Shown piece by piece: positions 604-29,956 of a stretch of DNA of 36,952 nt. Position numbers and translations under genes: made by a program. The stretch is from Armatimonadota bacterium (lineage in GTDB: Bacteria; Armatimonadota; Hebobacteria; GCA-020354555; CP070648). The stretch covers positions 791,373 through 828,324 of the forward strand of contig CP070648.1 in the NCBI GenBank assembly GCA_020354555.1, written 5' to 3'. Under the pieces are notes generated by a model that saw nothing but the letters and a program-made list of their open reading frames with translations, ran no database searches and was not told the DNA's origin. The stretch's first letter is position 1, and every line of letters begins with the position of its first letter.

Positions 604-747
604 ACGCTCGTCAGGGAATCGGGCTGCACCCACACCTAGTCCTCAGGACGACCTGCGTCGTAGCCTTCCGTGCGCTCCGGGCCTGAACCCAATCGTGATC
701 ACTCTCGTGCGCGAGGGGATCGCTGCCCGACGCAGAACGACCAGAGC

Positions 748-3150
748 ATGAGAACTACACTCCTGTTCTGCGTCTGGGTTCTGCCAGCGATTATCGGAGC
801 AGCGGTGGCGGACGACGTCCGCAACCTGGCCCTCGGCCGACCCTACACGATGTCGCCGGCGCCGAACTACCGGCTGTGCACCGACCCCGAGGACCGCACT
901 CAACTCACCGACGGCGAACACGCCGGGCCGGATATGTTCTGGGCGCAGGCGGCCGCGGTGGGATGGGCGACTTCCAACCCCATTCAGATCATCGTGGACC
1001 TCGGCGCAGTCAAGCCCGTGGACGGCGTCGTTTGGAGCACGGCGTCGCGCCTCAACGCCGGGGTTCACTGGCCCACCGTCATCGCGGCGGTGAGCGACGA
1101 CGGCACGATGTACCGTATCGTCGGCCAGATGGCGGCCGCCCCCATCGCGAACCAGGATCCGACGCGCGAGTACCGCCAAGCGATGCGCCTGACCGGCCTG
1201 CGCACCCGCGCTCGGTTCGTGATGCTGTTCGTCATCCCCGGCGGGCCCTACGCTTTCAGTGACGAGATCGAGGTGCTGGCTGGATCACACGAGCCGGACC
1301 GGGTCGAGATGACGGGGCGTGCGTTTCGGCCCGAGGAGTTTCGCAGCTACATAGGACTGATGCGCCAGCGGGCCTGGCTGCCGAAGCAGTGTGTGCGGCT
1401 GGCGGAGCGCGCGCGGGCGGAGGCCGGCATGGCCGCCCGCAGAGGCGACGACGGCACGGCGGCACAGCTGCGGCGCGCGGAGGCCGGACTGCGCCAGCTT
1501 GCCGGGCACATCCCCGCGCTTGCCCTCGATGCGCGCGCGCTGCGTGACGCGAGGCGCGAGGTGGCGGGCCTGTGCGCGGAGATCAATTCGTCATTGCGGC
1601 CGGGGGCGCCCTACGTCGTCTGGGAGCACGACCCCTGGGCGCCGCTGTCACCGCTCGAAGTCCCGCCGGGCGACCACGGCGGCTTGACGCGCCTCGAGGT
1701 TCACGCCGCTGCGAACGAATACTCAAGCGCGGCGGTCACGGTCACGAATCTGACGCGCGCGCCGATGGTGTTGACAGCGCGCCTCGAGGATTTGCGCGGC
1801 GAGCGAGCCACCGTCGGTGCGGACGACGTGTGCCTGCGCCGCGTCGAATTCGTCGAGGCCGCGACCGGGGAACTGATCGCCGATGCCCTGCCGCGGCTCG
1901 ATCGCCGGGGGCTCAGGCTCGGCGCGGGCGAGACCTCGCAGATATGGTTGACGCTGCCCAAGCGGCGCCTGCCGGCGGGCGACTATCGCGGGCGCCTGCT
2001 GCTGCAACCGACTGGTGCGGATGCGCCGCGCGCGGTGACGATAGTCCTGCGCGTCTATCCCATCGAACTCCCCGACGACATGAGCTTGCAGACATACAAC
2101 TGGGCATACGTGAGGACGTTCCCACTGGTGCGCGGGCTGGAGGAGGAAGCGGTCGCCGACCTCTTCGCCCATTACACGAACACGTTTGTTTTCTCCGGGC
2201 GCGACGTGCCGTGGCCGCAGTTCGACGCACAGGACCAGGGGACGATTGACTTCGCGTCCCACGACGAGAACCTGGAACTGCACCGCAGCGCGCGCGAGAT
2301 CTCCTGGTTTTGGAGCTTCCACGACGGCGAGCGCCCGGACGCGGGGCGATTCGGCGCCGACTATCTGAGCCCCGCATGGAAAGAGCGCTTCGCGTGGTGG
2401 CTGCGGGAGTGGGTGGCGCACCTGGGTGACCTCGGGTACGGCTACGATGACTTCTTCATGTATCCCTTCGACGAGACGCTGTGCGAGCGCTTCGGTGACC
2501 TAGCGCAGTTCATCAAGGAGGTGGACCCGCACCTCCGGGTGTTCGCCGACCCGACGAGCCATGACACGCGCGAGCGCATTGAGGCAATCGCGCCGTACAT
2601 TGACGTGTGGTGCCCTCACCTCTTCAGTTTCGAGAAGCGGGCGGATGACGTGGAGCTAATGCGCGCGCACGGCGAGAAGCTGTGGACTTACGCGTGCAGC
2701 GGGCCGGCGAAGGCGCTGTCGCCGCATGCCTACTACCGGCTCATGATGTGGAAGGCGTGGCGGCGGGGGTTCGCGGGCTGCGGGTTCTGGGCATATGCAG
2801 ACGCCGGCTGGGGCGGTAGCGACGCGTGGGACGACTTCGACGGCACGCGCCATGACTTCGCCGTGATCTACGCCGGCCGCAACGCGCCGCCGCGCGTGCC
2901 GCGGGATGAAGCGATCATCCCCAGCAAGCGGTGGGAAGCCTGGCGCGAAGGGATTGAGGACTACGAGTTGATGCGCGCGATTGACGAGGCCGCCCGCCGC
3001 GCGGAGGCGAACGGCGAGGCCGACCGAGCGGCGTCGCTGCGCGCGTCGCTGGACAACGCAGTTGAAGCAGGCCTTGCGTCGGAGGACGACGCCGGGGCGA
3101 TGGAGTCCGCTCGCCGGCGCCTACTGAAGACATTGGCCACGGCCTCGTAG
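748..3150 (+). CDS. Secreted DUF4091 / GH123-like protein with N-terminal discoidin-like domain
   Basis: 800 residues. ATG 748 gives a clear signal peptide (MRTTLLFCVWVLPAIIGAAVA, cut near ADD), so export is likely; the ORF is open further upstream but that extension is not hydrophobic. Residues about 25-150 resemble an F5/8-type (galactose-binding) domain, with NLALGRPYT and IIVDLGAVKPVDGV. A helical stretch (about 190-290) follows, then a beta domain, then a TIM-barrel-like region. The C-terminal part carries the DUF4091 hallmarks GCGFWAYADAGWGG (near residue 675) and WEAWREGIEDYELM (near 730). DUF4091 proteins are relatives of GH123 beta-N-acetylgalactosaminidases; the substrate here is not known. 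No strong SD was found. The gene is monocistronic, with yebC behind its own promoter 99 bases downstream. Confidence 0.8.
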   Translation: MRTTLLFCVWVLPAIIGAAVADDVRNLALGRPYTMSPAPNYRLCTDPEDRTQLTDGEHAGPDMFWAQAAAVGWATSNPIQIIVDLGAVKPVDGVVWSTASRLNAGVHWPTVIAAVSDDGTMYRIVGQMAAAPIANQDPTREYRQAMRLTGLRTRARFVMLFVIPGGPYAFSDEIEVLAGSHEPDRVEMTGRAFRPEEFRSYIGLMRQRAWLPKQCVRLAERARAEAGMAARRGDDGTAAQLRRAEAGLRQLAGHIPALALDARALRDARREVAGLCAEINSSLRPGAPYVVWEHDPWAPLSPLEVPPGDHGGLTRLEVHAAANEYSSAAVTVTNLTRAPMVLTARLEDLRGERATVGADDVCLRRVEFVEAATGELIADALPRLDRRGLRLGAGETSQIWLTLPKRRLPAGDYRGRLLLQPTGADAPRAVTIVLRVYPIELPDDMSLQTYNWAYVRTFPLVRGLEEEAVADLFAHYTNTFVFSGRDVPWPQFDAQDQGTIDFASHDENLELHRSAREISWFWSFHDGERPDAGRFGADYLSPAWKERFAWWLREWVAHLGDLGYGYDDFFMYPFDETLCERFGDLAQFIKEVDPHLRVFADPTSHDTRERIEAIAPYIDVWCPHLFSFEKRADDVELMRAHGEKLWTYACSGPAKALSPHAYYRLMMWKAWRRGFAGCGFWAYADAGWGGSDAWDDFDGTRHDFAVIYAGRNAPPRVPRDEAIIPSKRWEAWREGIEDYELMRAIDEAARRAEANGEADRAASLRASLDNAVEAGLASEDDAGAMESARRRLLKTLATAS

Positions 3151-18180: not shown

Positions 18181-20646
18181 TCAGTCCGTGAAGAACAACT
18201 CGTACAGGCCGTCTTCCGGTGGGTTGCGCCGGACGCCGACTTTGCCCGCACAGGTCCGGCGATCCAGCGGCGCGTCGGCGGGTAGGCCGACCGCCGCTAT
18301 CTCCACAACGTAGCGACACCCCGGCAGGACCTCGGGCACCGGGACCGATACGTCGAGCCATCGCTCCCACATGGAGACGCGCCCGGTAGGATCCCGGCCC
18401 GGCAGCACCCGGCGCCGCGTATCACCCTCGACCGCGACCACGACGACGCTTTTCACGTCCGTGCCGTACGCGCTGTCAATGAAATCGAAGCACACCACGT
18501 ATTCGCCGGGCTGCGTGATGTACGGCGTGGCGTCGAAGGTGAGGGTCTGCTGCGGGCCGTCGGCGAAATCCTCTGCCGACCACTGGCCGAGCTCCCAGTA
18601 GCCGAACGCGAATGGCGGGGCGGCGATGCCGAGCTGCGCGCCGATGATCCCGCGCGTCACCGCGGCGGCGCGCGGGGCGACGTGAAGCGTATCGAGCAGA
18701 CGATCGGGCATGGATCCACCGGACCGCGCGCATACTCGCTCCCCCCAGCGTCGCAGGCGCGAGCTGGTCACGGCCGCGCACTGGTCGAGCGTGTCGAGCG
18801 CGTCCGCGGCGGCGCGGATTTCATCGGAGGACACAGCCTGGGCATCAGCCGGCAAATGCGACAGCCGGTAGAGCGACCGCAGGAGCTTGACCGAGGCGAT
18901 GGTAATCTCCGTCTCGTCCACCGCATCGGGGAGGTCAAGGCGGCGGGCGATGGCGAGCGCCTCTCGCGCCTGGGCCAGGTCGCGTTGTATCTGCTCTTCG
19001 GACAGGACTTCCGGGCCGCTTTCGAAACGATGATCGAGTGGCACGTCGCGACCCACGGCCAGCGCCGGGTTGTAGATCAGGTTCAGAAACAGCCTGCTGC
19101 CGGCGATGTCCCACCCGACCGGCCCGATCTTGTCCGCCCAATCTGCGAAGGCCTCGATGTTCGCGACGCCGACGGCGCAGGCGTACGCGCGGGCGAACTC
19201 GCGCGGCGAGCGTCCATTGTGGTTCCAGCTCCACTCCGCGGCGGCGGTGACGTTGAACTCATGGAAGCGATTGGACGGGACGGCATAGCAGATGACGTTG
19301 GACAGCCCCTTGGTGGCGAACTCGTCCATGCGGGCGTGGACGAACTGCGGTCCGGTCCACGGAAACACCGTCCGCCACGCATTGGTGACCTGCGGGTACA
19401 CGCCGAGCCAGCGGCCGGAGCGGGCGAATTCCTCGAGCAGCGGGTAGATCATGGGGTGATGCGATGAGTCGTACGTGCGCCCGCCGTCGTAGTACGAAAC
19501 GCCGACATCCCGCGGCGCGGCTTCGAGGATCTTGTCATTGACGCTGTAGCTTCCCTGGGTGGTGAGAATGCGCAACCGCGCGTCAGGGTTGACCTGTTCC
19601 TGCGCCTGCCGGAAACCCGCGACGATGGCGGCCACCTCCAGGGCGTAGGGATCCTTGCCCGCGCACTCCTCGCAGAAGCAGGGCGTAGCTTCCTCGGAGA
19701 GCCAGACCATGATATCCCGCACGCCGGGAACGGCCGCGATTCCCTTGAGCCACTGCGCGATGAGATCCCACGTTCGCGGCTTGGACATGCACAGGACCGG
19801 GTAGAAGTCGCTGCGCTTTGCGCGTTCCTCGCTGGGCGTGCCGTAGCAGTCTTCCCACCCCTTGAGGCCGCCGCGCGTGAGCTGCTCCAGATGCGAGAGG
19901 ATGGGCACGACTTTGACGCCGAGCCCCTCCCCTTCCGTGATCTTGGCCCGATCGAAATGGATGGTCGGCTGCCCGTTCTCGTCACAGCCAGCCCCGGCGT
20001 GGAGTTCCACGACGTTCAGTTTCCGCTGCGCCATCCACGCGAAGTCAGATGCCGCGTTGCCGCCCCACTGGCCGCGCTCCGCGATATCGGGCCAATCCAC
20101 GATCTCGCCCAGCGGCAAGGCGAGTGGCGTATCGGGCGCAACCTCGGAGGGGGGAGAGATCAACCGCTGTAATGTCCGCGCGGCGTAGAGCAGGCCCAAC
20201 GGCGCGTTGGCTGCGAGCACGATTTCAGCGCCGCCGTCCGTCTCCCGGCTGAGGATGGCATAGGCCTGGTCGGAGTTGGGGAGCGCGCTAAAGCGGGCTG
20301 CGAGTCCGTCGGGCAGGCGAGCGTCGCCATCCGAAGATAGTGCGAGACGGATCCGACACGGGCTGTCCTCTCCGCCAAGGGCGAACGATCTGATGATCTC
20401 CAGCGCCGTGACGACCGGCGGCGGACTCTCTGCCGGCGGAACCACGTGAATCCGCACGGCCGTCGTCGCGAGTCCGCCCGTGATGGTCATCTCCTGCGGC
20501 AGCGGTATCACCCGCACCGCCCAGTCAACACTCGTGCCCGTGCTCATTGCAGTGGATGCCTCCTCCTGTACGGGATTGCCGTGCGCGCACACACGCGCCG
20601 CGTAGAGAACAACCACGCCAATGGTCACGACGGCGATCCTGCGCAT
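18181..20646 (-). CDS. Secreted GH20-like protein, second of a tandem pair
   Basis: 821 residues with a signal peptide (MRRIAVVTIGVVVLYAARVCA). Residues about 45-165 match the GH20 N-terminal alpha/beta domain (IPLPQEM..., LGLLYAARTLQRLI). A barrel region then starts at EIVDWPDIAERGQWG, as in GH20. Where GH20 has GGDE this protein has VWLSEE (Glu 318 and Glu 319), followed at once by CFCEEC (C323, C325, C328), a possible metal knot. A helical region (about 540-640) and a C-terminal beta domain (WSAEDFADGPQQTLTFDA onward) complete it. Hydrolysis of an N-acetylhexosamine-like substrate is suggested by fold only. It starts three bases after the stop of its paralog, and its SD (GCGGAGTGAATC-ATG) lies inside that gene, so translation is probably coupled. 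It may equally be a binding protein. Confidence 0.75.
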   Translation of the reverse strand: MRRIAVVTIGVVVLYAARVCAHGNPVQEEASTAMSTGTSVDWAVRVIPLPQEMTITGGLATTAVRIHVVPPAESPPPVVTALEIIRSFALGGEDSPCRIRLALSSDGDARLPDGLAARFSALPNSDQAYAILSRETDGGAEIVLAANAPLGLLYAARTLQRLISPPSEVAPDTPLALPLGEIVDWPDIAERGQWGGNAASDFAWMAQRKLNVVELHAGAGCDENGQPTIHFDRAKITEGEGLGVKVVPILSHLEQLTRGGLKGWEDCYGTPSEERAKRSDFYPVLCMSKPRTWDLIAQWLKGIAAVPGVRDIMVWLSEEATPCFCEECAGKDPYALEVAAIVAGFRQAQEQVNPDARLRILTTQGSYSVNDKILEAAPRDVGVSYYDGGRTYDSSHHPMIYPLLEEFARSGRWLGVYPQVTNAWRTVFPWTGPQFVHARMDEFATKGLSNVICYAVPSNRFHEFNVTAAAEWSWNHNGRSPREFARAYACAVGVANIEAFADWADKIGPVGWDIAGSRLFLNLIYNPALAVGRDVPLDHRFESGPEVLSEEQIQRDLAQAREALAIARRLDLPDAVDETEITIASVKLLRSLYRLSHLPADAQAVSSDEIRAAADALDTLDQCAAVTSSRLRRWGERVCARSGGSMPDRLLDTLHVAPRAAAVTRGIIGAQLGIAAPPFAFGYWELGQWSAEDFADGPQQTLTFDATPYITQPGEYVVCFDFIDSAYGTDVKSVVVVAVEGDTRRRVLPGRDPTGRVSMWERWLDVSVPVPEVLPGCRYVVEIAAVGLPADAPLDRRTCAGKVGVRRNPPEDGLYELFFTD

Positions 20647-20649
20647 GAT

Positions 20650-23190
20650 TCACTCCGCGAAAAACGATGCGGCCACCGCGTTCTCCGGCCACTCGCGCCT
20701 AATGCCGGCGCTGCCGCTGCAGGTCCTGCGATCCGGCGGCGCATCGGCAGGGATGCCGCGCACGTCAATCTCCACGACATAGCGACATCCCGGCAGAATC
20801 TCGGGCACCCTGACCGACATGTCGCTGTACCGGCTCCACATGGACACGCCGCCGGTGGGGTCCGAAGTGTCGAGCACCTGGCGGCGAGTTTCGCCGTCAA
20901 GCGCAACGATACGAACGCGCCGCACGTCGGTCCCGTAGGCACTCTCGATGAAGCTCAGGCACACTGCGTATCTGCCGGGCTCCGCGATGTGTTCCGTGGC
21001 ATCGAAGGTCAGCGTCCGCTCGGGGCCATCGGCGAAGTCAGCGCCGGACCAGCTGCCCAGCTCTCTAGTGTGGGACTCCGGGTGTGGATCGTCTATGCCC
21101 AGACGGTCGCCGATCATTCCGCGGACGACGCTCGCGGCGCGGGGCACGACGTGGATCGAGTTCGCGAGGCGGCCGGGCAAGGATTCCCCGATGCGCGCGC
21201 TTTCGCGCTCGCCCCATCGTCGCAGGCGAGTGCTGGTCACGGCGGCGGACCGGTCAAGCGTGTCGAGGTTGTCGGCGGCCGCTCTGATGTCGGCCGCGGA
21301 TAGCTGCGACGCGTCGAGCGGGACGTGCGACAAGCGATACAGCGCGCGCAGGAACTTGAGCGCGGCGATGTCCATTTCCGTCTCGTCTACCGCGTCGGGC
21401 GTGTTCATGCGACGGGCAAGGGCGAGCGCGTCGCGCGCCTGCGACAGGTCGCGCTCGATCTGTTCCTCGGACAGGACTTCGGGCCCGCCCTCGAAGCGAT
21501 GATCCAGCGGCACGGCCTCGCGCAATCCCATGCTCGGATCGTACATCAAGCAGAGGAAAATCTTGGTGGCGGCGACATCCCACCCTACCGGCCCGATCTT
21601 CTCGGCCCACTCGGCGAAAGGTTCGACATCGGCAATCCCGGCGGCACGGGCGAACGCGCGCGCGAATTCGCGCGGCGTGCGCCCGGCGTGGTTCCAGCTC
21701 CATTCCGCGGCGGCGGTGCAGTTGAACTCGTGGAAGCGGTGGGATGGAACGGCGTAGCGGATCACCGAGGCGAGCCGCTTGCCATAGAACTCATCCATGC
21801 GCGCCTGGATGAACTGGGGCCCGGTCCACGGCAGCACCGTGCCCCAGGCGTTGGTGATCTGAGGGTATACCCCGAGCCAGCGACCGGATGCCGCATACTT
21901 CTCCAGCAGCGGATAGATCATGGGGTCATGGGTGGAGTCGTAAGTGCGGCTGCCGTGGTAATAGGTCAAGCCGATGTCGGCGGGCAGTGCCGCGACGATC
22001 TCATCATTGGAGGCGTAACTTCCCTGGCTGGTGAGGATGCGCAGGCGGGCGTCGGGGTTGACCTCTGCTTGCGCCTCGCGGAATGCGGCGAGCACGACCG
22101 CAACTTCGAGCGAGTACGGGTTGTGCCCGCGGCACTGCTCGCAGCAGCACGGCGTCTCCTCCTCGGAGAGCCACACGCTGATGTCGCGCACGCCGGGCAC
22201 GGCTGCGATCTGCTTGATCCACCCCGCGATCAACTCCCGCGTCCGCGGTTTCGACATGCACAAGGTGGGATGGAAGTCGCTGCGTTTGGCCCGCTCTTCG
22301 GTCGGCACGCTGTAGCAGTCTTCCCACCCCTTGAGCCCGCCGCGAGCGAGATGCTCCAGATGCCCCAGGAAGGGCACGACCCTAATGCCCAACTTCGCGC
22401 CCTCCGCGACCTTCGCCTCGTCGAAACGGATGATCGGCTGTCCGCGCTCATCGAGTCGCTCGTGGACGTCCATCTCCACGACGTTGAACTTCCACCGCGA
22501 CATCCATGCGAGATCGTCCTCGGGGTCTTCCCCCCACTGGCCGCGTTCCGGGATGTCAGGCCAGTCCACGATCTCGCCGAGAGGCAAGATGAGTTCCGTG
22601 TCCTTCGTGACGCACGACGGCGGAGACACCAACTGCTCAAGTGTCCGTGCAGCGAAGAGCAGGCCCTGTGGAGTGTTTGCGACCAACAGGATCTCGACGG
22701 CGCCGTCGCTGGTTCGCCGACCGAGCAGTGCATACGCCTGGTCGGCGTTGGGCAGCCCACGCAGGCGTTCGGCCAACCCGGCGGGCAGCGCGAGATCATT
22801 CTGTGACGACAGTGCCAGCCGGATGCGGCACGGGGGGACCTCGCGGCCGAGCGCGAAGGATCGCAGAGTATCCAGCGCAGTCGCGATAGGTGGAGAGGTG
22901 GCCGCAGGCCCGAGCGCGCAGAGCTCGTCCGCCCTGACCACAGCGCTGTCCGTTATGCTCATCTCGTGCGGCAGCGGTATGACCCGCACGGCCCAGTCAA
23001 TGCTTGGTGTCGTACCCAACGGCGTAGATGCCTCCTGGATGGATTGAGCCGCGACGACGTCAGTCAGACTCCGGGCCGCTGAATCTGCGCCGCGCCGGTC
23101 ACCTGCCGAACACGCACCACCCGTTGCGATGGCGCTCGCCGACAGCATTGCCAGAACGGTAATGCCGGACGTACCCAGAACTCGTCTCAT
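20650..23190 (-). CDS. Secreted GH20-like protein, first of a tandem pair
   Basis: 846 residues from ATG 23190, which has GCGGAGTGGTC immediately upstream; in-frame codons above it are open but not family-like. A hydrophobic signal segment (GITVLAMLSASAIATGGA) is followed by a linker, then the same order as the downstream paralog: GH20b-like domain (IPLPHEMSIT), barrel from EIVDWPDIPERGQWG, VWLSEE (Glu 343 and 344), CCCEQC (C348, C350, C353), helical region, C-terminal beta domain. The two proteins align over their whole length with well over half the residues identical by eye, so this is a gene duplication that has had time to diverge, mostly in the signal region and C-terminus. It is the promoter-proximal gene of the pair, with an inverted repeat 23 bases upstream. 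Confidence 0.75.
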   Translation of the reverse strand: MRRVLGTSGITVLAMLSASAIATGGACSAGDRRGADSAARSLTDVVAAQSIQEASTPLGTTPSIDWAVRVIPLPHEMSITDSAVVRADELCALGPAATSPPIATALDTLRSFALGREVPPCRIRLALSSQNDLALPAGLAERLRGLPNADQAYALLGRRTSDGAVEILLVANTPQGLLFAARTLEQLVSPPSCVTKDTELILPLGEIVDWPDIPERGQWGEDPEDDLAWMSRWKFNVVEMDVHERLDERGQPIIRFDEAKVAEGAKLGIRVVPFLGHLEHLARGGLKGWEDCYSVPTEERAKRSDFHPTLCMSKPRTRELIAGWIKQIAAVPGVRDISVWLSEEETPCCCEQCRGHNPYSLEVAVVLAAFREAQAEVNPDARLRILTSQGSYASNDEIVAALPADIGLTYYHGSRTYDSTHDPMIYPLLEKYAASGRWLGVYPQITNAWGTVLPWTGPQFIQARMDEFYGKRLASVIRYAVPSHRFHEFNCTAAAEWSWNHAGRTPREFARAFARAAGIADVEPFAEWAEKIGPVGWDVAATKIFLCLMYDPSMGLREAVPLDHRFEGGPEVLSEEQIERDLSQARDALALARRMNTPDAVDETEMDIAALKFLRALYRLSHVPLDASQLSAADIRAAADNLDTLDRSAAVTSTRLRRWGERESARIGESLPGRLANSIHVVPRAASVVRGMIGDRLGIDDPHPESHTRELGSWSGADFADGPERTLTFDATEHIAEPGRYAVCLSFIESAYGTDVRRVRIVALDGETRRQVLDTSDPTGGVSMWSRYSDMSVRVPEILPGCRYVVEIDVRGIPADAPPDRRTCSGSAGIRREWPENAVAASFFAE

Positions 23191-23365: not shown

Positions 23366-23392
23366 GTGACTCGGCGGCGTCCCCCGTATTAT
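23366..23392 (+). promoter_or_regulatory. Candidate promoter for the GH32-like / AKR / ADH run
   Basis: GTGACT (23366-23371) and TATTAT (23387-23392) with a short 15-base spacer. The -10 matches five of six bases in otherwise very GC-rich noncoding DNA, about 95 bases before the start at 23487. The spacing is suboptimal. Confidence 0.35.
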
Positions 23393-23486
23393 GCGCCAGG
23401 AGCGGGCCGCGCGCCGCCGCCGTCGCCCACGAGGCAGCGGCGCCGAGCCCAAGACCTGCGACACGTCCGCCGTTGCGGAGGCAGCG

Positions 23487-25121
23487 ATGATGTCCAATCA
23501 TGCCGATGCGGCCGATCACTGGCAGCTCTTCCTGGACGATGACGTCCTGGCGCGGACGACAGGATTCGACCGCATCATACACCACCCGCGGGCGACGGGT
23601 GTCGTCATTCCCGCCGACCGACCGTGGGAGACCGCCGGGGTCGCGCCGCTGCTCGTGGATCGCCGGGGCGACGGCTCGTTCTTCGCCTACTACACGGCGA
23701 TGTGGTGGGACATTGACGGCGCCGACACCCTGCCGGATAACTTCAGGCGCGACCGCGCGCATCACATCTTCCACGGCGTCGCCTATGCCGAAAGTGACGA
23801 CGGAGTTCACTGGCACAAGCCGGAGCTGGGCCTGGCTGAGGCGCCCGCCGCGGTTGACCGGGACAAGTACGCGCCCTTCCCCTCGCCCCAGGGCGTCGCC
23901 CGCGAGAATAACCTCGGCGTGCCGTTCGTGGTGGTCGCGGACCTCGGCCGGTTTGGGAACGTCAGCGACCTGCACAAACGATATGCGCTGCGCCTGGCGC
24001 CCGATCCGACGCAGCCGGCCGGCGTCGGCGCCGCCTGGACCCTATCGCCGCGCGGGTACTTCGCCTCCGAGCTTCCCGATTTCGTGAACGAGCGCGAGTG
24101 GGGCAAGAAGCTGCTCGATTCCGGGGGCTGCTTCGACCCACGGCGGCACCTGCTCCATTTCTGGGACGACGTACACGAGGAATGGGTGGCCATGGAGCAA
24201 GGCGTGATCGGCCACTGGCTGCCGTCGCGCGAGATCGCGCGCATGTCGTCTCCCGACCTGATTAGCTGGACATCGCGGGCGGTGCTGTATCCGGATGCCG
24301 CCGATCCACACGGACAGGACGACTACGACGAGCCGATGTCGCTGACGCCGTTCTGCGCGGAGCGCGTCGTATTCGGGCTGCTGAGCTGGTTTCACTCGGA
24401 TCGGACGCATCCCGACGGCGGGCCAAATCTGGAGCCGTCGCCTGGACATCCGCACATCTGGCCGTGGTGCCGCAAGGGAACCTGCGAAATGCGCATCACC
24501 CTCAGCCGCGACGGCGGCATGACGTGGGACCGTACGGTCAGCCGCGAGCCGTGGATTCCACACGGCGGCGAGCAGGACAGCTACGACCGGCTGGTGATCG
24601 GCGCGCTGCCGCCGGTACGCGTCGGCGACGAGGACTGGTTCTACGTCGAGGTGATCGACGGCGACCACCTGGGCATTCGCAACGACGTCGAGCAGACGCC
24701 CTACTATCGCGGTCGCTTGCCGCAGCACCAGATCGCGCTGTACATCCAGAAGCGCAATCGCTACGTGAGCCTGACCGCGCGCAACCATCCAGAGGTGCTT
24801 ATCACGAAGCCCATCACGATCACCGGTGATTCACTTCGGCTCAACGTTGACGCGAGCCGCGGCGAGGTGCGCGTCGGCATCGCGGCGGCTGGACCCGTGT
24901 CGACGTTCGAGGATACGACGCCGTCGTTTGCGCCGCATCTGCTGGAGCAACGGCTGCTCTGCGGTCTTGGGTTCGACGACTGCGTGCCGGTGCGGGGGAA
25001 TTCGGTTGAGCACGAGGTGCGGTTTCGGGATGGAGCGGCGCTGCAATCGCTTCGGGGGCAGGCGGTTTGCCTGCTAGTCCGGATGGTTGACGCGGACCTC
25101 TACGGCTTTCGGTTGGTGTGA
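23487..25121 (+). CDS. GH32/GH43-like five-bladed propeller protein, cytoplasmic
   Basis: 544 residues, no signal peptide. The opening DHWQLFLDDDVLARTTGF is the usual start of GH32-like propeller proteins of planctomycete-type genomes, followed by repeating blades with DDGVHWHKPELGL, SSPDLISWTSR and SRDGGMTWDRTV, the Asp-box-like strand ends of sialidase or GH43/GH32 folds. A C-terminal beta-sandwich (SLRLNVDASRGEVRVGI) resembles the GH32 C-terminal domain. The classical GH32 triad motifs (WMNDPNG, RDP, EC) were not found, so the catalytic residues and the substrate remain open. ATG 23487 has GGAGG five bases upstream (23477-23481). It is followed after 38 bases by the aldo/keto reductase, probably in one transcript, which suggests intracellular sugar processing. 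Confidence 0.7.
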   Translation: MMSNHADAADHWQLFLDDDVLARTTGFDRIIHHPRATGVVIPADRPWETAGVAPLLVDRRGDGSFFAYYTAMWWDIDGADTLPDNFRRDRAHHIFHGVAYAESDDGVHWHKPELGLAEAPAAVDRDKYAPFPSPQGVARENNLGVPFVVVADLGRFGNVSDLHKRYALRLAPDPTQPAGVGAAWTLSPRGYFASELPDFVNEREWGKKLLDSGGCFDPRRHLLHFWDDVHEEWVAMEQGVIGHWLPSREIARMSSPDLISWTSRAVLYPDAADPHGQDDYDEPMSLTPFCAERVVFGLLSWFHSDRTHPDGGPNLEPSPGHPHIWPWCRKGTCEMRITLSRDGGMTWDRTVSREPWIPHGGEQDSYDRLVIGALPPVRVGDEDWFYVEVIDGDHLGIRNDVEQTPYYRGRLPQHQIALYIQKRNRYVSLTARNHPEVLITKPITITGDSLRLNVDASRGEVRVGIAAAGPVSTFEDTTPSFAPHLLEQRLLCGLGFDDCVPVRGNSVEHEVRFRDGAALQSLRGQAVCLLVRMVDADLYGFRLV

Positions 25122-28021: not shown

Positions 28022-29749
28022 TTATGGCGCGCGAGCATCGGGACGTAGTTTTCGACCCGTGTGCACCCGAAGCAGGTCGGTCACTCCCGCCTCGGACGCG
28101 ATGTCCAGAGGCGTGCGCCCCTGGTCGTCACGCGCTTTCATATCAGCGCCTTTGGCCAGCAAAAGCCGCGCCGTCTCCAGGTGTCTATCCCTCCGCGCTT
28201 CAGCGTACCGCACCGCTGCCGTGCCGTGCCGAGGGTCGATCTTTGGAGCGCGGTCGATGAGCCAGCGCTGCTGCCGCGCGAGTTCGGTGACAGCGAAGCG
28301 CACGGGCGTTTCCCCGCCGTGGCCTTCGCGTCTCGCGTTGACGTCAGCCCCGTTTGCAATCAGCACGCGAGCCGCCTCGGCTTGGCCCTGGCGGGCGGCC
28401 TCATGAAGTGGCGTCGAGCTGTCCTCTCCTCTGGCGTTTACGTCCGCTCCGCTGGAAATGAGAAGACCCACAACATCGGCGCGGCCGCCAGCAGCCGCCC
28501 AGTGTAGCGGTGTGGACCTGTTGCGTCCTACCGCGGTGACGGCCGCCCCGCGTGCAAGAAGGAGCCGTACGGTGCGCACGTCTCCCGCGATGGCCGCATT
28601 ATGCAGCGGCGTCGAACCGTCCGCGTCTCTGCTGTTGACATCGGAGCCCCCGACGAGCAGCGCCCTGACCGATTCAGGGTCGCGGCGGTGAGCCGCAACG
28701 TGCAACGGCGTATTCCCTGCATCATCCTTGGCCTCGACGTTCGCTCCGTTGCTCACCAGAAGTCTTACGAGAGCGACGCGCGACTCTCTCTCCGCGGCCT
28801 CCGAGTAGTCTCCGCCTGCCAGCGCCCAGTGGAGCGGCGTCGAGCCGTCGTCTCGTCTCGCATTCACATCTACTCCTGCGGATAACAGCAACTTCACAAC
28901 GTCGACGCAGCCCCCGCGCGCCGCGGCGTGAAGCGGCGTCGAGTCTCCGCGTGATCTGGCTTCAACGTCGCCGCCTTTGGCGATCAGCACCGCTGCGGCC
29001 GCCACGCGGCCCTCCGCGGCCGCGACGTGCAGGGGCGTCCGCCGCTCGTCTTTCGTCCTCGCGTTGACATCGGCGCCTTTGGCCAACAGAAGCCTGACGA
29101 GACCTTCGTCCCCCGACTTGGCGGCGCCGCATAACAGCGGATAGCCACGTACGCCAGCCACCTCGACGTCAGCGCCGTGCGTCAGCAAGAGCCGCGCAGC
29201 TTCCGGCTGAATGGCCTGTGGGGCCATCGCCAAGGCCAGCGGCGTGCGACCGCGGCGGTCCTTTGCGTTGACGTGCGCGCCCGCGGTCAGCAACAGGCGC
29301 AAGACTTCCGTCCGACCCGCTTGGGACGCGGCATGCAACGGCGTCGCGTTGTCTATGTTTCTCGCGTTGACGCCGGCCTGCCGTGCGAGGAGCAGCCTCA
29401 CAACCTCGGCGTGGCCCTCCGCCGCTGCCTGATGCAGGGGAGTGTCGCGGGACTTGTCGGGAGCGCGAACATCCGCGCCCGCATCGAGGAGCAGCGTTGC
29501 CATTGGCGTATCACCGCGGCGAGCGGCGAAGTGGAGCGCAGTCTGTCCGGATTCGTCGATGGCATTGACGGAATCGGCGTCGGCCCTGAGAACGTTTCGG
29601 ACTGCGCTGACATCGCCCGCCTGTGCCGCGCGGTGAATCGGCTCGGTGCTTCCCGCCCGGCCCACCCTTCCCGCGTGCCTCGCACAACCGCCCACGCCGA
29701 GCGCGAGGATGATCGCGCACGACGCGGCTGCGTGGAGCCCTCTGCGCAT
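28022..29749 (-). CDS. Ankyrin-repeat lipoprotein
   Basis: 575 residues. ATG 29749 gives MRRGLHAAASCAIILALGVGGC, a lipoprotein signal with a VGGC lipobox, so the mature protein is probably anchored to a membrane outside the cytoplasm. The rest is about 15-16 ankyrin repeats of 33 residues, most with the consensus TPLHxAAxxG and LLLxxGADVNA; one repeat (around SEAAERESRVA) carries a 10-residue insertion. A weak SD (GGGGTG) precedes the ATG. Ankyrin repeats mediate protein contacts; partner unknown. It is the first gene of a two-gene unit with the SWIM-finger gene 15 bases downstream. The repeats give internally similar DNA, so copy number may vary between strains. Confidence 0.9.
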   Translation of the reverse strand: MRRGLHAAASCAIILALGVGGCARHAGRVGRAGSTEPIHRAAQAGDVSAVRNVLRADADSVNAIDESGQTALHFAARRGDTPMATLLLDAGADVRAPDKSRDTPLHQAAAEGHAEVVRLLLARQAGVNARNIDNATPLHAASQAGRTEVLRLLLTAGAHVNAKDRRGRTPLALAMAPQAIQPEAARLLLTHGADVEVAGVRGYPLLCGAAKSGDEGLVRLLLAKGADVNARTKDERRTPLHVAAAEGRVAAAAVLIAKGGDVEARSRGDSTPLHAAARGGCVDVVKLLLSAGVDVNARRDDGSTPLHWALAGGDYSEAAERESRVALVRLLVSNGANVEAKDDAGNTPLHVAAHRRDPESVRALLVGGSDVNSRDADGSTPLHNAAIAGDVRTVRLLLARGAAVTAVGRNRSTPLHWAAAGGRADVVGLLISSGADVNARGEDSSTPLHEAARQGQAEAARVLIANGADVNARREGHGGETPVRFAVTELARQQRWLIDRAPKIDPRHGTAAVRYAEARRDRHLETARLLLAKGADMKARDDQGRTPLDIASEAGVTDLLRVHTGRKLRPDARAP

Positions 29750-29956
29750 CGTGAACACCCCGTCGAAACGTATCTTCAACGCGCCCCGTGCGCATCCTCG
29801 CATCTCCACGCGCATCGCTCCGCACCGGCGCGCACGCCGCTCCCCGTCCTCACGTCGGTCATGCCCCAGCCCCACCGGGCGGGCCGGCTCATCTGCAGGG
29901 GCCGGGGCTCACGGAGCAGAACCCTGCACTGGCTCAGGCGAGCAGGGACAAAGCAC

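Follow-up and report, generated by a model that had tools for sequence, protein, structure and literature searches.

A tandem gene pair from an Armatimonadota bacterium in an uncharacterised GH20-superfamily branch

The window, a 36,952-nucleotide stretch of contig CP070648.1 from an Armatimonadota bacterium, contains a tandem pair of genes (Table 1) whose products, P0001 and P0002, fall in a GH20-superfamily branch that is uncharacterised; the chemistry based on an E-E pair and a metal that a first-pass annotation had proposed for them is unsupported. The reading we favour, and which we regard as reasonably probable, is that both are secreted and probably exo-acting predicted glycoside hydrolases, with a glutamate as acid/base and without the canonical polarising aspartate. 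The branch occurs widely (118 stretches confirmed in one scan, about ten phyla), yet it has no match to a curated family above cut-off and no close solved relative, and it lets one ask, with natural variants, how the GH20 scaffold functions when the polarising Asp is missing.

Table 1. Features of the gene pair, with positions in the window
Feature	Position	Strand	Basis
Gene 1, P0001, 846 aa, secreted GH20-superfamily protein	20650..23190	-	ORF call, codon-position GC
Gene 2, P0002, 821 aa, P0001 paralogue	18181..20646	-	ORF call, alignment, tree
Gene 1 stop TGA	20650-20652	-	
Gene 2 start ATG	20644-20646	-	
Gene 2 Shine-Dalgarno-like site GGAG, within gene 1	20653..20656	-	
P0001 GH20b-like N-terminal domain, residues 69-210	22561..22986	-	Pfam PF02838
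P0001 (beta/alpha)8 barrel, residues 215-500	21691..22548	-	AF2 models and Foldseek
P0001 C-terminal beta-sandwich, residues 709-832, 8pxu-like	20695..21066	-	Profile match and AF2
P0001 R216, invariant, on GH20 sugar-binding Arg	22543..22545	-	Alignment
P0001 H277, invariant, on GH20 pocket His	22360..22362	-	Alignment
P0001 C311, fourth Cys, comes and goes with the other three	22258..22260	-	Alignment
P0001 S342-E343, Ser at GH20 Asp position, Glu at acid/base position	22162..22167	-	
P0001 E344, variable position, second Glu of the proposed E-E pair	22159..22161	-	Glu in 15/77
P0001 C348-x-C350-xx-C353	22132..22149	-	Sequence, alignment
P0002 GH20b-like N-terminal domain, residues 44-185	20092..20517	-	Pfam PF02838
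P0002 R191, counterpart of R216	20074..20076	-	Alignment
P0002 H252, counterpart of H277	19891..19893	-	Alignment
P0002 C286, fourth Cys	19789..19791	-	Sequence, alignment
P0002 S317-E318, counterpart of S342-E343	19693..19698	-	Alignment
P0002 CxCxxC (C323, C325, C328)	19663..19680	-	Sequence, alignment

The gene pair and its duplication

The two open reading frames and their coordinates are as first annotated, and the junction between them, GCGGAG-TGA-ATC-ATG, agrees with the description of a second gene that starts three bases past the stop of the first, with its Shine-Dalgarno sequence inside the first gene. From this 3-nt gap (ATC) we infer that the genes are probably transcribed as one operon, and the gap together with the Shine-Dalgarno-like site makes the proposed joint production of the two proteins likely. 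GC content at the three codon positions of the P0001 gene is 0.66/0.52/0.81 and third-position GC is 0.81-0.83 in the two genes, while divergence between them at codon positions 1/2/3 is 0.27/0.19/0.46; these values are consistent with two coding genes under purifying selection. Both proteins start with a hydrophobic segment that, judged by eye from the sequence, is signal-like.

P0001 and P0002 are 64% identical over their alignment and are sister branches in the tree with support of 100/99, so that the duplication, which is a local one, happened after their lineage had parted from its nearest sampled relatives. In the stretch of flanking DNA covered for each of ten near relatives, no second copy was found beside the gene. 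Tandem copies do exist elsewhere too, since at one locus (L020, G041:C435:10419-14532) distant family members adjoin each other, one of them with an in-frame TGA. In the barrel tree the P0001 branch is about 3.7 times the length of the P0002 branch (0.37 vs 0.10): this duplicate is evolving faster, perhaps toward another substrate. Examples of differences between the copies are P0001 H412, which is Asp in P0002, and P0001 D241, which is His.

Fold and relationships to known families

The GH20-like architecture that had been proposed is supported by the GH20b head, the barrel model, and the profile and Foldseek matches. PF02838 (GH20b) is recognised in the window proteins at E 4e-4 and 2e-4, under the curated cut-off, and in 22 of 23 family members in Pfam searches (best E 2e-11), and the DWP part of the entry segment is borne out by the invariance of D209, W210 and P211 in 77 aligned proteins. 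An AF2 model of P0001 from 77 sequences has a pLDDT of 90.4 and a pTM of 0.89, with low confidence in residues 1-59 (the signal segment and linker), and a barrel-only model reaches pLDDT 94. The barrel strands in the model are residues 215-219, 237-246, 270-275, 336-340, 382-386, 407-410, 439-441 and 475-479. H277 follows beta3 and E343 directly follows beta4, placing the motif at the C-terminal end of the predicted catalytic strand, as annotated, and the glutamate at the strand mouth rather than away from the pocket.

With the whole protein, Foldseek matches are ordered 8pxu GH20, GH138, GH115, GH84, GH20 and GH67, and TM-scores against all solved families are low (0.31-0.58); with the barrel only, the best 12 matches are all GH20, followed by GH138 and GH115 amid more GH20. 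The top whole-protein match, the Akkermansia GH20 8pxu/8pxt, has the same domain order (GH20b head, barrel, C-terminal beta-sandwich), and its C-terminal domain matches that of P0001 with an i-Evalue of 1.6e-9, but it is only 11% identical and is a beta-N-acetylhexosaminidase by its record name. The GH138 alpha-galacturonidase BP0997 (6hze) and the GH115 and GH67 alpha-glucuronidases share the fold class and are among the top Foldseek matches, but the barrel has no sequence support for these families. Membership of GH115 (hhalign 1.5%) was rejected, as was membership of GH84, for which a profile check had been suggested and gave the barrel no support (hhalign 7%).

A GH20 profile search had also been suggested, and it is on GH20-like proteins that the barrel profile aligns best. 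The hhalign probability against distant GH20 proteins is 98.5% over 278 columns, in a register that sets WLSE on GxDE (E343 on E, S342 on D) and pairs R216 and H277 with the GH20 Arg and His; against bona fide GH20 it is 81%, in an alignment confined to the first part of the barrel. Among solved structures, the barrel profile matches only 9fym/9fyl by sequence, with WLSE on GLDE. PDB searches with single sequences gave no meaningful match, and PF00728 is matched by neither window protein and is absent from the families matched by the 23 members. Literature searches for 9FYL, TrpyGH20 and 8PXU returned nothing. The pair thus resembles GH20 (PF00728; GcnA 2epk, SpGH20C 5a6b, Treponema denticola lacto-N-biosidase 9fym) in its GH20b head and (beta/alpha)8 barrel, in the Arg on beta1, His after beta3 and Glu after beta4, and in a Cys cluster comparable to that of some GH20 members, but differs in lacking both a PF00728 match and the Asp-Glu pair after beta4. 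Assignment to an established active family whose normal D-E pair lies elsewhere had been raised as a result that would count against the annotation; no curated family is matched above cut-off, and the Asp position holds Ser, Ala, Gly or Thr.

The suggested search against DUF4838 (PF16126) gave a mixed outcome. Over 278 columns the barrel profile aligns with DUF4838 at an hhalign probability of 96.5%, E343 falling on the Asp of ND and all four cysteines lining up, the set (LCxTN ... CxCxxC) being common to both; Pfam membership, in contrast, did not stand, with P0001 scoring 12.5 bits (E 0.08) vs a cut-off of 26.6, P0002 giving no PF16126 match and 7 of 23 family members matching weakly. DUF4838 proteins also differ in having mostly Asn-Asp after beta4 vs Ser-Glu in the window branch. 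DUF4838 is a large expanded family on which we found almost no literature (a single paper); the window's own genome has 16 matches (including L031-L040) and one relative genome (G014) has 34. For the one DUF4838 member tried, no solved relative was found by sequence.

Pocket residues, the cysteine set and competing explanations

Residue conservation was counted over the 77 aligned proteins, which come from about ten phyla. The motif sequences of the two window proteins are LSEEETPCCCEQC and LSEEATPCFCEEC. E343, R216 and H277 are each present in 77/77, and W219 and W499 are likewise invariant. Position 342 is Ser in 45 proteins, Ala in 11, Gly in 11 and Thr in 10, and position 344 is Asn in 20, Glu in 15, Arg in 14 and Leu in 9, with others in the remainder, so the motif shared by the family reads W-[LM]-[SAGT]-E-x and not E-E. 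LSEE followed by CxCxxC does stand in both proteins where GGDE was expected, and the GH20 Asp is indeed absent, but Asp-Glu has been replaced by Ser-Glu and not by Glu-Glu; conservation rejects the E-E pair as a catalytic unit. Among the 77 proteins there is no second invariant pocket carboxylate, and the catalytic set can therefore be assigned only in part; the E239 column has Glu in 62, Lys in 13 and Gln in 2. E496 was considered as a nucleophile and rejected, as it sits in the helix after beta8 and not at a strand end.

In GH20 enzymes the Glu serves as acid/base, and polarising the N-acetyl group falls to the Asp together with a Tyr (PMC7426924); the pocket Arg binds the -1 sugar at O3 and O4, and mutants of either member of the Asp-Glu pair lose nearly all activity (PMC8098473). 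Taken with the profile register, these roles indicate that the family keeps the acid/base position without the polarising Asp. E343 would then act as general acid/base, with R216 and H277 holding the sugar in the -1 site. Because the polarising residue is replaced by Ser, Ala, Gly or Thr, the canonical Asp-assisted route through an oxazoline is unlikely. The substrate may instead be polarised by another pocket group, or it may not be a 2-acetamido sugar.

The full set of four cysteines (C311, C348, C350, C353) is present in 72/77 proteins and missing in five, one of which has a single aligned Cys. If each column lost its Cys independently at the observed rate of about 5/77, calculation predicts less than one sequence with at least three losses, and this all-or-none behaviour indicates a joint metal site, in keeping with the suggestion of a metal site near the motif. 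The five proteins lie on at least three separate branches of the tree (L047; L088; L117/L119/L120) and all keep E343. An upstream Cys with CxCxxC or CxxC after the catalytic strand is also found in 35/39 DUF4838 proteins, 4/9 bona fide GH20 and 7/21 distant GH20, and in the solved GH20 BT0459 (6q63) CTGG, LCAGND and CPKC flank an intact GGDE. The set thus appears to be an old and dispensable feature, most likely a structural metal knuckle as far as sequence comparison can tell, which would hold a metal, most likely Zn, and pin the beta4-alpha4 loop beside E343. Its recurrence by the catalytic strand across GH20 and DUF4838 is a caution for annotation.

The same observations bear on the proposal that the E-E pair does altered chemistry beside a catalytic metal. 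While the motif is in both window proteins and the cysteines are close in sequence to the Glu, the second Glu is a minority residue, the Cys block is lost repeatedly with E343 kept, and the same kind of block accompanies a normal D-E pair in ordinary GH20; we therefore consider this proposal highly improbable, metal-dependent catalysis is disfavoured, and the Cys cluster is not a sign of altered chemistry. A non-catalytic sugar-binding protein of glycosidase descent would explain why one GH20 catalytic carboxylate is gone and no second invariant pocket acid was found; a pure binder, however, would hardly need an acid/base residue, let alone one retained across about ten phyla with the pocket Arg and His, and we think this explanation unlikely.

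That the pair are ordinary beta-N-acetylhexosaminidases, working by substrate-assisted catalysis with Tyr442, Gln389 or Glu239, for example, in place of the Asp, seems to us slightly less improbable than a binding protein, though still doubtful. GH20 gives the best match in both structure and profile, its pocket Arg, His and Glu are kept, and Tyr442, positioned after beta7, is conserved within the near clade, a Tyr being the second polarising residue of GH20 (PMC7426924). Against this, the Asp is essential in GH20, activity being almost abolished in VhGlcNAcase D437A/N (PMC8098473), and Ala or Gly occupies its position in 22/77 proteins. Our favoured reading, of predicted hydrolases with a Glu acid/base and no canonical polarising Asp, has a more specific form that we put forward tentatively, at somewhat worse than even chances: the branch could be a new GH family in the GH20 superfamily, with one invariant pocket carboxylate, acting on a non-acetamido sugar (such as a uronic acid or a rhamnogalacturonan side chain) by a non-oxazoline mechanism.

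Distribution and genomic neighbourhood

Matches to P0001 occur in 23 of 151 genomes, its own counted; its own genome has none beyond the pair, and the 13 others from that genome's family or class lack them. A first contig scan with a single-protein query detected no relative; the scan that confirmed the 118 stretches yielded 80 that were kept, from Chloroflexota, Acidobacteriota, Planctomycetota, Armatimonadota, Verrucomicrobiota, Lentisphaerota, Kiritimatiellota, Omnitrophota, Gemmatimonadota, Latescibacterota and Bacteroidota. The tree-nearest sequences are from Chloroflexota (L041, L044) and homologues in the pair's own phylum are more distant (36% at best), which suggests horizontal transfer. 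Thirteen sequences (L106-L120) from Latescibacterota, Gemmatimonadota, Acidobacteriota, Bacteroidota and Kiritimatiellota group as a sister clade whose branch is long (1.54); they have Lys for Glu at 239 and mostly WLSER or WLTER after beta4.

Neighbours of the pair in the window include GH127, an alpha-L-fucosidase, a GH2-type domain, an acetyl xylan esterase-like protein and oxidoreductases, and genes near the relatives encode GH106, GH78, GH42, alpha-L-arabinofuranosidase, pectate lyase and a GH141-type domain, as well as peptide/sugar-type ABC transporters. The glycan-degradation neighbours and the signal-like segments favour an exo-glycosidase on plant-type glycans, and the neighbours hint faintly at a role in trimming plant or pectin-like side chains. 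Upstream of the pair is a divergently oriented 576-aa ORF (23391-25121) with no Pfam match at E 0.01. Elsewhere in the window, an 826-aa ORF (670-3150) has a GH123 catalytic-domain match just below threshold (22.3 vs 23.1 bits), and a 617-aa ankyrin-repeat ORF at 28022-29875 on the minus strand has about ten repeat stretches.
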